From the NCBI GenBank assembly GCA_003153375.1, contig PLYM01000143.1:1-51585 (forward strand): DNA of 51,585 bases, written 5' to 3'. The position numbers and the translations under genes were made by a program. This document shows, piece by piece, positions 280-48,968 of this stretch (its first letter is position 1; the number at the start of each line of letters is the position of its first letter). The notes beneath the pieces are model-generated. The model ran no database searches, was not told where the DNA came from, and was given only the letters and a program-made list of their open reading frames with translations. This DNA comes from Planctomycetaceae bacterium. GTDB lineage: Bacteria; Planctomycetota; Planctomycetia; Pirellulales; PALSA-1355.

Positions 280-307
280 TTGACGGGGTCTGCGGGGCGC
301 GGATAAT
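280..307 (+). promoter_or_regulatory. Promoter of the blaI-M56 operon
   Basis: TTGACG at 280-285 and GATAAT at 302-307, spaced by 16 bases, resemble a housekeeping sigma-70 promoter. It lies between the two operator palindromes, so repressor dimers at both sites would cover either side of the RNA polymerase footprint. Transcription would begin in or near the proximal operator. Confidence 0.65.
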
Positions 308-349: not shown

Positions 350-739
350 GTGAACGATCGTATTCCGTCGGGCCGAGAGCTCGACATCTTGAAGATTTTG
401 TGGGAGCTGGGAACCGCCAGCGTCCGCGAAGTCCACGAGCGGATGTGTCCGGATGGCGAGCTGGCTTACAACACGGTGCAGACGCTGCTGCGGATCATGG
501 ACGACAAGGGACTGGTGACGCATCGGCTGCGCGGCCGCACCTTCGTCTACACGTCCAAGCACACCCGCGAGCGGGAGATGTCGCGGCTGCTGGATAACGT
601 GTTCGATGGGGCCGTCGATCAGTTCGTGTTGAGCTTGTTGAAATCGCAAAACACGACTGCCGATGAGATGAAGAAACTGGAGCGGATCATCGCCGACGCT
701 CGGCGACGCAAGCAGACCGATCGCGCGAAAGGGACCTGA
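350..739 (+). CDS. blaI: BlaI/MecI/CopY family transcriptional repressor
   Basis: A 129-residue winged-helix repressor of the penicillinase-repressor family, the usual length. The N-terminal two thirds hold the winged helix (ELDILKILWELG, then a recognition helix around AYNTVQTLLRIMDDKG and a wing ending GRTFVYTSK); the C-terminal third is the helical dimerisation arm, where BlaR1-type proteases usually trigger cleavage of BlaI. The start is GTG, chosen because AAGGAGG at 337-343 stands six bases before it. The M56 gene follows after one base, so the two are co-transcribed. The paired palindromes around the promoter imply autorepression. In planctomycetes such pairs need not concern beta-lactams, so the inducing signal is unknown. 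Confidence 0.9.
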   Translation: MNDRIPSGRELDILKILWELGTASVREVHERMCPDGELAYNTVQTLLRIMDDKGLVTHRLRGRTFVYTSKHTREREMSRLLDNVFDGAVDQFVLSLLKSQNTTADEMKKLERIIADARRRKQTDRAKGT

Positions 740-740
740 C

Positions 741-2750
741 ATGCCGAGCTACGCGACCGCCTACGTCTATCTGGTGCAAATGGCCCTGACCAGCACCGTG
801 CTGCTGGCCGTCGCGGCAGCGGCGGTGTTGCTGTTGCGCGAACCGGCGCGGCGCGTCCGGGCCATCGAGCTGGCCTTTGCCGGGCTGGTGGCGGTGCCGC
901 TGTTGATGCTGCTGCCCGGCTATCCGCGCTTGCGCGTGCTGCCCGCGGAGGCGGTCGAACAGGTCGCAATGACGCAGCAGCCTGCGCCGGCTTCGTCTCC
1001 GACCAGGGAAGCCCAGCAGCCCGGAGTTGAGCTCCCTGCCCAGCCGCAGGCTGCCGAGCTTGAGCCCGAGACGTTCTTGCCGTCAGCTTTGCCGATCGAC
1101 AACAGCGACACCAACAGCGGCGCGCTCGACGCGGGCAGCGAGCCCTTCGGCGCCGCGGCCCCGCCGATCCCGGTCATGGCGCCGTCGCCAACGGTTGCGC
1201 CCGCGCCGGCGTCCACCGATTCGGTCACGGTCCCTGCCGTCGTGCCACTCCCGTCGACGAAAGCCGTGCCCACGACGCGCGAGCACTGGCCCGCATTGTT
1301 TGACTATCGCTTCTGGATCGTGCTTGTCTATGGCGTGGGCGTTGCGACGGCGGCTGCGTGGTCTGTCGTGGGCCTGTTCGGTGTGCGACGGCTGCTGCGC
1401 TCGGCGCGGCCGGTCGACGGGGCCTGCCGCTCGCTGTTGCGCGACGTCGCCGGGCCGGCTAGCGATCACGTGAAGCTGCTGGTTTCGGCGCGGGTCAGCC
1501 AGCCGTGCGCGTTCGCCAGCCTGCCGCCAACGATCGTATTGCCCGAAGAGTTGTGTGCGGCCGGCGACGCGCGACGTCTGCGGTGGGCCTTGGCGCACGA
1601 GTGGTCGCACATCGCGCGGAGGGATGTTTGGGCCTGGTCGGCCAGTGGACTGCTGCGTGGGCTCTATTTTTATCAGCCGCTGGCGTGGTGGCTGCGACGG
1701 CAATTGCAGTTGGGTCAGGATTTCGTGGCCGATGCCGCCAGCGCCGGCGGCGAGCCCGAGGATTATGCCGAGTTTCTCGCGTCGTGGTCGTCACCGTTCT
1801 GGATTGCTCGAGGAGCCGCTGGTCTGGGGATCGGCGGCCGCGTTTCGGACTTACACAGGAGAGTCGTCATGCTCGTCGAGAATCGCCGCCCGTTGGAAAC
1901 CGCCACGCCGCGTGCCTGGAGCCTGGCGGCACTCACGATTGCCGGTCTGTTGTTTGCCGGCGTGGCTTGCCTGGGGCCGCAATCCTCTGGCACCGAGCCC
2001 AAACCACAGCCGCCTGCCGAGGCAGCGGCCGCCGACGGCGACGTGTCGAAGCCCGCGGCGGCATTTGATCCCTACACTGCACCCGCTGAAAAACCATCAC
2101 AACCCGAGACGCCCGCGGCGGCAGCCCGGGCCGCGCGCGATCCGAGCAAAGTGGTGAAGGGGGACCAATTGAAAATTGAAGTGATGAGCAATCTGCGTGA
2201 ATCAGGAGATGTGCGGTTATTGGTGCCTCCCACATTCTCGGCCGTGGTCGACAGCGAGGGGTGGGTCTCGCTGGGTGGGCATTATCAGAGAGTACAGGCG
2301 GCGGGCTATGGATTCGGCATGCTCGAGAGGGAGATTGCCGAGTCGTTGCGATTCGGTGTGGATCAGGACATCAAGATCCAGAGTGAAAGCGACGAAAACG
2401 CCAAGTTGCCCACGGGCCCGGTGCAAATCAACGCCCGCGTCATGCTGGTGATGCGTGCGCCCGAGGCGGAAGGCGGCGCCCGCTTCGGTGGCCCAAACCC
2501 CGTGCAAGCGGCTGCCGCCGCGCGACCCAAGGGGCTCGCTCCCGGGGACGTGCTGCAGATCGATTCGCCGCAGGTTAAGCCGAGCGATGGACTGCCGGAT
2601 GTGGCCGTCGTCGAACCCGATGGCGGCCTGCCCATCGGCGCCAGCTTTGGCAGGGTGAACGTGCTGGGAAAATCGCTCAGCGAAGCCGAGCAGTTGATCA
2701 AATCCGTACTTTCACGGGTGTTTGAGGAATGCGACGTGCAGGTAACGTAG
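741..2750 (+). CDS. M56 (BlaR1-type) metallopeptidase fused to polysaccharide-export-like modules
   Basis: A 669-residue membrane protein. Two N-terminal helices (about residues 10-30 and 40-58) are followed by a long Pro/Ala-rich stretch, a third helix near 190-215, the peptidase core with the zinc motif HEWSH at 286-290, and a fourth helix near 390-412. After another Pro/Ala-rich linker come two modules (about 470-575 and 595-669), each opening with a VKGDQLKIEV or APGDVLQIDS type phrase and ending in an amphipathic helix, as in the Wza/Poly_export domain. BlaR1 proteins sense an envelope signal and inactivate BlaI; here the classical penicillin-binding sensor is replaced by export-like domains. 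The ORF ends at TAG (2748-2750), and the same frame continues directly into an ExbD-like module, so this may be a truncated form of a longer protein. Confidence 0.85.
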   Translation: MPSYATAYVYLVQMALTSTVLLAVAAAAVLLLREPARRVRAIELAFAGLVAVPLLMLLPGYPRLRVLPAEAVEQVAMTQQPAPASSPTREAQQPGVELPAQPQAAELEPETFLPSALPIDNSDTNSGALDAGSEPFGAAAPPIPVMAPSPTVAPAPASTDSVTVPAVVPLPSTKAVPTTREHWPALFDYRFWIVLVYGVGVATAAAWSVVGLFGVRRLLRSARPVDGACRSLLRDVAGPASDHVKLLVSARVSQPCAFASLPPTIVLPEELCAAGDARRLRWALAHEWSHIARRDVWAWSASGLLRGLYFYQPLAWWLRRQLQLGQDFVADAASAGGEPEDYAEFLASWSSPFWIARGAAGLGIGGRVSDLHRRVVMLVENRRPLETATPRAWSLAALTIAGLLFAGVACLGPQSSGTEPKPQPPAEAAAADGDVSKPAAAFDPYTAPAEKPSQPETPAAAARAARDPSKVVKGDQLKIEVMSNLRESGDVRLLVPPTFSAVVDSEGWVSLGGHYQRVQAAGYGFGMLEREIAESLRFGVDQDIKIQSESDENAKLPTGPVQINARVMLVMRAPEAEGGARFGGPNPVQAAAAARPKGLAPGDVLQIDSPQVKPSDGLPDVAVVEPDGGLPIGASFGRVNVLGKSLSEAEQLIKSVLSRVFEECDVQVT

Positions 2751-3197
2751 GTGAAGCTAAACAACGCGCCGTTTACCTACATGCCCGGCCCCGCGACCCC
2801 GCCCGCGACGTTTGCTCCGCCTCAAGCCGATACACGGGTTCGCCAGCTCGAGAGTGTGATTGAGGGACTGAAGAAGGAGCTTGAGAGTTTAAAGAAACCA
2901 ATCACGCCCGAGCGCAAGACCACCAGCGGCAACCAAGGGGCCGAGGCGCCGGCGTTGCATCTGTCGCTGCGCCACAAGGAGACCGGCGAGTCCGTACTGT
3001 ACTTGGACGATCAGCCCACGGACGAAGCGTCGCTGACTCGGCTAGTCTCCGCGGCCCACGAGAACAATCCGCACGTTTTCCTGGCGGCCGACAAGGAGAC
3101 ACCTTACACCGAAGTGGTCCGCTTGATTGATCACCTCGGCTCGCTAAGTTTGCACAAGATCTCGCTGAACGTGGGGCCAAGGTCCCAGCGGTACTAG
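2751..3197 (+). CDS. ExbD/TolR-like periplasmic module, probably the severed tail of the M56 protein
   Basis: A 148-residue frame that begins with GTG directly after the TAG of the M56 gene and in the same frame. It has no transmembrane helix or signal peptide. It opens with a Pro-rich stretch, then a short coiled coil (RQLESVIEGLKKELESLKK), then from about residue 68 a domain with the ExbD/TolR periplasmic pattern: a strand, a LYLDDQP turn, a helix, VFLAADKETPY, a VVRLIDHLG helix and a final KISLNV strand. ExbD proteins normally need an N-terminal anchor, so a free cytoplasmic copy makes little sense. The simplest reading is that TAG replaces a sense codon and the intact gene ran 741-3197 (818 codons before the final stop). 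Independent translation from this GTG is possible but the upstream Shine-Dalgarno is weak. Confidence 0.65.
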   Translation: MKLNNAPFTYMPGPATPPATFAPPQADTRVRQLESVIEGLKKELESLKKPITPERKTTSGNQGAEAPALHLSLRHKETGESVLYLDDQPTDEASLTRLVSAAHENNPHVFLAADKETPYTEVVRLIDHLGSLSLHKISLNVGPRSQRY

Positions 3198-3573
3198 GCA
3201 CGGCCGAGGCGGTCGTTCGTCGGTTCCATCGTGACGGATTCCCCAACGTCGATCGTGCTTCAAGTGTCTTTTCCACCATCTGGATGGCTGCCTTGGTTGG
3301 ATCGAGGCTTCGGACAACCTGAACGCTGGGTGGGGGCGAGGACCTCGTCGAGCGGGTGGTGGGGCCGGCAAATGGCGGGCCGTTTCCGGGCATCGATGCC
3401 AGACCGAGTTTCTCTATCAAAAACTATGTTTTTCAGGAGCAGAAAACAGCGTTTTCTCCGCGTTTTGGCCGGTTGGTGGTTCCCTGCCGGGCTGCCGAAA
3501 AAAAATCGAAACTTTCGAAACGGGGTGGGGGTATACCCTCTTGGAAGAGTTTAGCGTTGTCGTAAAAGAGTAG
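3198..3573. other. Gene-free stretch between the ExbD-like ORF and the tandem terminators
   Basis: No ORF here has family resemblance or a ribosome binding site. The second half turns AT-richer than its surroundings, with runs of A and T around 3410-3510, then a G-rich stretch ending in the 10-base palindrome GGGTATACCC at 3529-3538. It may be a long 3' untranslated region or encode a small RNA ending at the terminators that follow; the sequence alone does not decide. Confidence 0.4.
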
Positions 3574-3608
3574 GCCGTGATGGGGTAACCCATCGCGGCT
3601 TTCCTTTT
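3574..3608 (+). terminator. Intrinsic terminator with GUAA tetraloop
   Basis: An 11-base-pair stem (3574-3584 with 3589-3599, one G-U pair) closed by a GTAA loop, which is a GNRA tetraloop in RNA, followed by TTTCCTTTT. First of two tandem terminators on the plus strand. Confidence 0.75.
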
Positions 3609-5363: not shown

Positions 5364-5443
5364 GGGTGCCACTGCTGGCTTGTCCAGCAGTGCTGTTTTC
5401 AGGGTTACGAGGAACACTGCTGGACAAGCCAGCAGTGGCACCC
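5364..5443. repeat. Nested palindromic repeat, family B copy 1
   Basis: Two perfectly complementary 29-base arms (5364-5392 and 5415-5443) enclose 22 bases. Each arm contains its own smaller hairpin, CTGCTGG and CCAGCAG around CTTGT, so the element can form one long hairpin or two small ones. It lies in the gap between two convergent genes. A second copy is at 48883-48968 and a lone arm at 36429-36447. Confidence 0.85.
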
Positions 5444-6016: not shown

Positions 6017-8146
6017 GTGACGACTGAGCCGACGAACGCTGAACCTCGAAAAATCCTGGTCACGGCGGCGCTGCCCTATGCCAATGGCCAGATTCATCTG
6101 GGCCACCTGGTCGAGTACATCCAGACCGACATCTGGGTGCGATTTCAGAAGCTTCGAGGGCATCGCTGCATCTATATCTGTGCCGACGATACGCATGGCA
6201 CGGCGATCATGATTCGGGCGCGGCAGGAAGGGCGCAGCGAGGAGGCGCTGATCGCGGACATGCGCGAGGCGCATTTGCGCGACTTCGATTGCTTTGGCGT
6301 GCAGTTCGACAATTATGGCAGCACGCACAGCGAGGCGAACCGGCGGCTGTGTGGCGAGATTTGGGGTCGGCTGCGGAAGGCGGGGTTGATCGGCGAAAAG
6401 GACGTGACGCAGCTTTACGATCCGGTGGCCGGCACGTTTCTGGCCGATCGATTCGTGAAGGGAACTTGTCCCCGCTGCGGCTCGCCGGGTCAGTATGGCG
6501 ACAACTGCGACAAGTGCTCTTCCGTTTACAACGCCACCGATTTGAAGGATCCGAAGAGCACACTATCGGGAGCCACGCCGGAGTTGCGCGAGGCCAAACA
6601 TTGGTTCGTTGAGGTCGAGCAGTTGCACGACTTTCTGGCCGAGTGGACGCAGCAGGGCGATCACTTGCAAAAGGAAGTCAGCAACTACCTGGCCGGGCAT
6701 TTTTTGGGCGAGCCGCTGCGCGATTGGGACGTCTCGCGGCCGGCGCCTTATTTCGGCTTCGAGATTCCCGACAGCCCGGGCAACTATTGGTACGTCTGGT
6801 TCGATGCTCCGATCGGCTACATCGCCTCGACGGCCGAGTGGTGCGAGCGGCATGGCGAGACGATCGACGGCTGGTGGCGCGGCGATGCGGCCGAGATTCA
6901 TCACTTCATCGGCAAGGACATTCAATACTTTCACACGTTGTTCTGGCCGGCGATGCTCAAGACGGCCGGCTTCAGCTTGCCGACCAAGGTTCACGTACAC
7001 GGCTTTTTGACGGTCGACGGCGAGAAGATGTCGAAGAGAAAAGGCACCTTCGTGATGGCCGCCACGTATTTGAATCACTTGGATCCGGCCTATCTGCGCT
7101 ATTATTACGCCTCGAAGCTGGGCCCGGGGTTGGACGATCTGGATTTGCACCGCGACGAGTTCGTGATGAAGGTGAACTCGGACCTGGTGGGCAAGGTGGT
7201 GAACCTGGCCAGCCGCACGGCCAAGTTTTTGCGAGACACCGGGTTGTCGCCCAGCTATCCCGATGACGGCGGGCTGTTCGCCGCCGCGGCCGCCGAGGGC
7301 GAAGCGATTGCCGCGGCCTACGAGGCCTGCGACTATAACAGGGCCATGCGGCTGATCATGGCCCTGGCCGATCGGGCGAATCAATACGTCGACACCGCCG
7401 CGCCCTGGAAGCTGCGCGACAACATCGACCGCGCCGTCGAGTTGCAATCGCGGTGTACGATCGCCGTGAACTTGTTTCGCCAGTTGGTGATTTACCTATC
7501 GCCCGTGCTGCCGACGTTGCAGCGGCAGACCGAAGACCTGCTGGGCCCGCCGATCGCCCATTGGGATGACGTGGCCACGCCGCTCGTGGGCGTGCCGATC
7601 CATGAGTTTCAACACATGATGAAACGCGTCGAGCCCGCGCAGCTCGAAGCGATGATTGCCGAAAGCCGCCAGGAGCCTGTCATGAACCAACCGCCAGCGA
7701 ATGAACCCGGTCCGCAAACCACTCCCCTGACCGACGGCGTGCCGATCGGCGGCACCACCTCGGGCAGCCCGGGCAGCGACAGCGGCGCGGCGCTCGAGAA
7801 GGAACCGCTGGTCGGCGAGACGATCAGCATCGACGACTTTACGAAGGTTGACCTGCGCGTGGCGCGCGTCGTGGCGGCCGAGGAGGTGCCCAAGGCCAAG
7901 AAGCTGATCAAGCTCACGCTCTCGCTGGGCGGCGAAGTGCAGCGCACGGTGTTCGCGGGCATCAAGAGCGCCTATGAACCGAGCACCCTTGTTGGCCGGC
8001 TGGTGATCTGCGTCGCCAACCTGGCCCCGCGGCAAATGACGTTTGGCATCAGCGAAGGCATGGTCGTGGCCGCCGGCGGCGGCGGGCAAGAGATCTATCT
8101 GCTCAGCCCCGACAGCGGCGCCCAGCCGGGACAGCGCGTGCACTAG
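6017..8146 (+). CDS. metG: Methionine--tRNA ligase
   Basis: Charges tRNA-Met with methionine. At 709 residues it is the long form with a C-terminal tRNA-binding domain. The class I signatures are present: HLGH at 27-30 (HIGH) and KMSKRKG at 337-343. A zinc knuckle with cysteines at 151, 154, 164 and 167 lies in the connective region. After the anticodon-binding domain there is a Gly/Pro/Thr-rich linker (about 555-600), then an EMAP/Trbp111-type domain from about 605 ([13 protein letters not shown], then [11 protein letters not shown] and [23 protein letters not shown]), which also dimerises the enzyme. The start is GTG; no better start is near and the synthetase core begins within 15 residues. 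TACAAT at 5960-5965 could be a -10 box, but no clear -35 is seen. Confidence 0.97.
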
Positions 8147-48882: not shown

Positions 48883-48968
48883 GGGTGCCACTGCTGGCTT
48901 GTCCAGCAGTGCCTTCCTGTCGCCTAACGTCAAGCTGTTCTCACTGCTGGACAAGCCAGCAGTGGCAC
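48883..48968. repeat. Nested palindromic repeat, family B copy 2
   Basis: The left arm (48883-48911) is identical over 29 bases to the left arm of copy 1. The right arm (48942-48968) matches the expected complement over 27 bases and then differs. The 30-base spacer is unlike copy 1. It lies in the leader of the alpha/beta hydrolase gene, about 55 bases before its start. Confidence 0.85.

Follow-up and report, generated by a model that had tools for sequence, protein, structure and literature searches.

In the genome of a planctomycete, a gene for a BlaR1-like membrane protease ends at a TAG codon, and the next codon opens a further stretch of the same reading frame that encodes an ExbD-like domain. 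Are these the two parts of a broken gene, one gene whose stop is read through, two separate genes, or pieces joined during assembly? The sequence is contig PLYM01000143.1 of the Planctomycetaceae bacterium assembly GCA_003153375.1 (GTDB lineage Bacteria; Planctomycetota; Planctomycetia; Pirellulales; PALSA-1355); positions 1 to 51,585 of the forward strand, i.e., the whole stretch that was analysed, are referred to as the window. We consider it probable that a single ancestral gene, encoding a BlaR1-like receptor with a captured ExbD domain, is now interrupted, either by a nonsense substitution or by a consensus error.

The reading frame on either side of the TAG

The M56 gene (positions 741 to 2750, forward strand) encodes 669 amino acids up to the in-frame TAG at 2748 to 2750. 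A GTG at 2751 abuts this TAG, and the reading frame continues in the same frame for 148 codons to a second TAG at 3195 to 3197 (open frame 2751 to 3197, forward strand, 148 amino acids); the joined frame has 818 codons. Re-reading the frames bore out the earlier note, which had described a TAG followed by an in-frame GTG open reading frame (ORF) of 148 codons with zero bases between. The frame behind the TAG is not a chance open frame: its coding score is positive in only frame 1 of the six frames, its GC3 is 0.77 versus 0.54 in the stretch just downstream, and its modelled product has an ExbD/TolR fold. The composition is coding-like on both sides of the junction. No forward-strand terminator was found between 2750 and 3197; a hairpin search located a terminator-like hairpin with 13 pairs after the ExbD piece (3572 to 3601, forward strand).

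Elsewhere in the window, the same inverted repeat (CACTGCTGGCTTGTCCAGC ... GCTGGACAAGCCAGCAGTG) is present at 5366-5441 and 48885-48968; it looks like a dispersed palindromic element.

A BlaR1-like receptor downstream of BlaI

Pfam searches matched the product of 741 to 2750 to Peptidase_M56 (1.9e-19) and Poly_export (3.8e-10). Hydropathy and the orthologues described below agree with its assignment to the M56 receptors. The protease motif HEWSH (HExxH) is encoded at 1596 to 1610. The four hydrophobic segments are at residues 14-32, 41-59, 193-211, and 394-412, the last of which precedes two Wza-type domains, since the Poly_export match falls into two stretches. The first domain (2148 to 2450, forward strand, ends approximate) is delimited by Pfam and by local alignments from residue 455-474 on. 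The second (2535 to 2765, forward strand; Pfam residues 599-669) is also recognized in a structural model and by Foldseek, and its last beta-strand extends across the TAG.

The gene for a BlaI-type repressor (Penicillinase_R; 350 to 739, forward strand) is located directly upstream, and the two genes are only 1 bp apart (739/741). The repressor was identified by Pfam (4.9e-25), by its identity to the BlaI proteins of orthologous operons, and by a strong Shine-Dalgarno sequence. Two operator-like 18-bp palindromes, CACCTAAnnnnTTAGGTG, lie 54 bp apart on either side of the blaI promoter (CACCTAAAAAGTTAGGTG at 255 to 272 and CACCTAATGTTTTAGGTG at 309 to 326, both forward strand); the putative promoter between them, TTGACG-N16-GATAAT (280 to 307, forward strand), was assigned from its match to the sigma-70 consensus only. 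The window contains two palindrome matches versus 0.01 expected. Upstream of BlaI in both orthologous operons, the pair ACCTAAnnnnTTAGGT or a version one mismatch off recurs, also with a spacing of 54 bp. In a search allowing at most one mismatch, which is blind to half-sites and to the missing parts of draft genomes, the window genome and the orthologue-bearing genome G002 contained only the pair, and G003 contained the pair plus one one-mismatch site. The pair is a candidate BlaI operator, and its distribution supports the prediction that the BlaI and M56 genes regulate themselves as a unit and that BlaI has few targets elsewhere, or none.

This arrangement resembles BlaR1/MecR1 with BlaI/MecI in the BlaI-type repressor directly upstream, the M56 domain with HExxH, the hydrophobic segments on either side of the protease motif, the large C-terminal part past the last of these, and the palindromes around the promoter. 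However, the outer part of the window receptor consists of Wza-type domains and, past the TAG, ExbD, and no penicillin-binding sensor domain was found; the receptor is therefore BlaR1-like, not BlaR1 itself. The window receptor also differs in being cut by a TAG, and its genome has no further clear target site. In Staphylococcus aureus, BlaR1 has been described as a receptor in which the sensor domain passes its signal to a metalloprotease facing the cytoplasm, and this protease takes part in the derepression of BlaI (PMC9834060). By analogy, sensing of an outside ligand would trigger the protease of the window receptor and lift BlaI repression, and the outer part of the receptor would be periplasmic.

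The outer domains share fold and sequence with the OPX/Wza polysaccharide export domain (PF02563); here, in contrast, the domain is repeated in a membrane protease receptor and is not part of an outer-membrane export channel. Another M56 protein of the window genome (L041:1751-4084, in G000:C85) appears, on inspection by eye, to contain C-terminal Wza-like repeats, so this type of outer domain may recur in the genome.

The TAG position in orthologues and homologous domains

Two genomes from the same family contain orthologues of the M56 receptor (G003:C8, 1133 aa, and G002:C61, 1514 aa). Each is a single ORF whose M56 part is 43-44% identical to that of the window receptor, and the adjacent BlaI proteins are 65% (G003) and 76% (G002) identical to the window BlaI. 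At the TAG position the orthologues read VVVTY and VQVTY, aligned with VQVT-TAG in the window; Tyr is encoded by TAT in one and by TAC in the other. In all 24 distinct homologous Poly_export domains, which belong partly to M56 proteins and partly to export-type proteins, the position is occupied by a sense codon, and a stop comes 14 codons further on at the earliest. In a model of the read-through second Wza-type domain, which matches Wza (Foldseek, 1.6e-5), the last strand comprises residues 83-87, and the TAG corresponds to residue 86. Together with the Tyr in the orthologues, this model places the TAG inside a structural element rather than between domains. Termination just 14-28 codons beyond the TAG position is seen in some related Poly_export proteins, so that a receptor without ExbD could be functional.

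Alternatively, the TAG may be read through at some rate, so that receptors of 669 and of 818 residues are made side by side. The frame stays intact downstream, in-frame stops with purifying selection kept up have been reported in bacteria (PMC7918605), and an unrelated M56 gene from the same family (L075 in G003) also has an in-frame TAG. However, a stop conserved among relatives, as looked for in cases of readthrough, was not found; because both orthologues carry Tyr codons, the stop is not conserved at this position. TAG is also an ordinary stop in the window genome, where it terminates 12 of 31 long ORFs, and it closes the same ORF at 3195. The use of TAG as a stop in these ORFs led us to reject genome-wide recoding, and insertion of pyrrolysine was rejected when a search for PylS gave no match above the cut-off. 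We therefore regard readthrough as distinctly unlikely. Still more doubtful is an elaborated version, in which a working M56-ExbD receptor exists in short and long forms through readthrough, and the BlaI operon answers to a TonB/ExbB energy system or to envelope polysaccharide.

The L075 gene (G003:C8:111214-112191) is the second M56 gene in which we observed an in-frame TAG. Its TAG directly follows the CCDE motif, the frame is open on either side, and two other M56 genes have Leu at this position; L075 could be another broken gene.

Linker and coiled coil behind the TAG

The first ~50 residues encoded behind the TAG form a linker and a coiled coil (to about residue 49). The coiled-coil-like helix (2829 to 2897, forward strand) was predicted in both structural models and has counterparts in related M56/Poly_export proteins: behind their Wza-type domains, the tails of the G003 and G002 orthologues and of L105 and L063 contain, or terminate in, coiled-coil-like stretches that are similar to the linker and coil in the window. 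An alignment with G225:C86 (3.9e-7) runs across the TAG position into the coil. The start of the post-TAG piece resembles the tails of M56 proteins and not the starts of ExbD proteins.

This resemblance bears on the possibility that the locus encodes two proteins by design, with translation stopping at the TAG and restarting at the GTG, so that the products are a shortened receptor and a soluble ExbD domain not attached to it. The TAG and GTG abut, a tight spacing also seen between the BlaI and M56 genes, the ExbD piece is undecayed, and the GTG has a weak AGGU motif in front of it (-3.9 kcal/mol, close to the value for metG at 6017). However, the Shine-Dalgarno strength at the GTG is inside the random range, the first 50 residues are an M56-type linker and coil, and an ExbD piece lacking a signal or transmembrane segment would remain in the cytoplasm, away from the place where ExbD works. 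A restart by design thus appears unlikely.

The ExbD domain

The ExbD domain (2907 to 3173, forward strand) begins at about residue 53 of the post-TAG piece and was identified by Pfam (8.2e-8), by 51% identity to an ExbD from a genome of the same genus (G001), and by Foldseek. The AlphaFold2 model of the piece has a mean pLDDT of 62.8, with higher values over the domain; searched against the PDB, it matched the periplasmic domains of ExbD and TolR at 1.2e-4 to 5.2e-4 (8vgc at 1.2e-4). A search with the sequence only matched ExbD chains weakly (E 0.14-0.55). The maximum 19-residue hydropathy of the piece is 0.62, versus 2.88 for the G001 ExbD. These results uphold the earlier note's description of an ExbD/TolR-like periplasmic domain, and hydropathy revealed no hydrophobic segment, in keeping with its claim that the piece has no signal or membrane anchor.

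The G001 ExbD, the closest relative, adjoins ExbB and has a transmembrane segment. All 12 ExbD relatives compared (eleven and G968) have a membrane anchor, and the relatives checked are separate, anchored genes. In an ExbD tree, the window copy was placed without support; its nearest neighbor by path is G001. The window genome contains three other ExbD genes and two ExbB-like genes, the latter 27-28% identical to the G001 ExbB; a close relative of that ExbB was not found in the genome (best match 28%), and there is no ExbB/TolQ partner beside the ExbD piece. Thus, the window domain shares the fold and sequence of the ExbD/TolR (PF02472) periplasmic domain, with planctomycete ExbD proteins as its best relatives, but it has a linker and coiled coil instead of the transmembrane segment, is without an ExbB partner, and is placed behind an M56 tail.

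The window ExbD retains 20 of 26 consensus positions, which is within the range of the twelve anchored ExbDs (18-24 of 26-28). Between it and the G001 ExbD, 36, 29, and 48 differences fall on the first, second, and third codon positions of 87 codons; this third-position excess probably mostly reflects the time before the TAG arose. At the sequence level the ExbD piece shows no decay, which implies that the stop is recent, is tolerated, or is absent in the cell.

Searches for other M56-ExbD fusions

The ExbD domain is absent from the orthologous M56 proteins in G003 and G002. Searches of 346 genomes of the order, 392 of the phylum, and 397 of the class, which are overlapping sets searched with a single-sequence query that could miss remote fusions, returned no second M56-ExbD fusion. 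A 744-residue frame in G870:C392 that seemed to span the linker to ExbD was rejected as antisense to two other ORFs. When genome contigs were searched with the joined protein, no relatives came up. With the orthologue alignment, five M56 loci were recovered, two of them the known orthologues; the remaining three, read by eye, have no ExbD-like tail. In literature titles and abstracts we found nothing specific on M56/BlaR1 or ExbD architectures in planctomycetes.

Since the fusion was seen in no other genome, a single assembly is the basis for the joined protein. The assembler may have joined the ExbD half to the M56 gene, or that half may come from another organism: the draft of the window genome comprises 291 contigs and has 4.18% contamination, the junction between M56 and ExbD is 2.8 kb from the contig end, and the genome has no ExbB partner of the G001 type. 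On the other hand, the join is in frame, an M56-type coiled coil precedes ExbD, the composition on either side of the junction is coding-like, and the ExbD half is single-copy, no second copy being found in the window genome. A misassembly is in our judgement quite improbable. The absence of ExbD from the M56 orthologues, the separate, anchored genes of the ExbD relatives, and the lack of a second fusion suggest that a BlaR1-like receptor captured the ExbD domain, possibly from a lost or foreign ExbBD operon.

Discussion

Three options had been put forward in the earlier note: a gene broken by the TAG, readthrough, and a restart at the GTG. The first, widened to include a base error, fits best, because the TAG position is a sense codon in the orthologues and in every homologous domain examined, and because the post-TAG piece starts like an M56 tail and unlike an ExbD; the other two are weaker, and nothing specific speaks for either of them. 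The note had also held that homologues in which the ExbD-like part is always a separate gene would count against a single gene. The ExbD relatives checked are indeed separate and anchored, and ExbD is missing from the M56 orthologues, but the window piece is anchorless and begins with an M56-type linker and coil, so that it is better accounted for by a fusion specific to this lineage than by a separate gene.

According to the reading that we favor, a split ancestral fusion, the locus would be a BlaI/BlaR1-like two-gene operon, apparently autoregulated. The receptor would have comprised membrane segments, a zinc protease domain, two Wza-type outer domains, a linker with coiled coil, and an ExbD periplasmic domain, present in this genome only, that was apparently acquired from an ExbB-ExbD system without the anchor belonging to it. 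Presumably the reading frame once ran uninterrupted across the TAG, and one nonsense substitution, either real and probably recent or an error in the draft consensus, would end the protein at residue 669, where the second Wza-type domain has its last strand. An M56 receptor with Wza-type and ExbD outer domains is a new combination in a kind of receptor already known, and one that is possibly broken.

Planctomycete M56 receptors differ greatly in their outer domains, with Wza-type repeats here and other repeat-rich tails in relatives. An ExbD domain in this place, with neither anchor nor ExbB partner, would mean that receptors can draw on components of energy transducers for their own domains. 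With a TAG that is genuine in the cell, the locus would be a receptor observed while it loses or tunes a domain; with a base error, the genome would encode a complete receptor of novel architecture.
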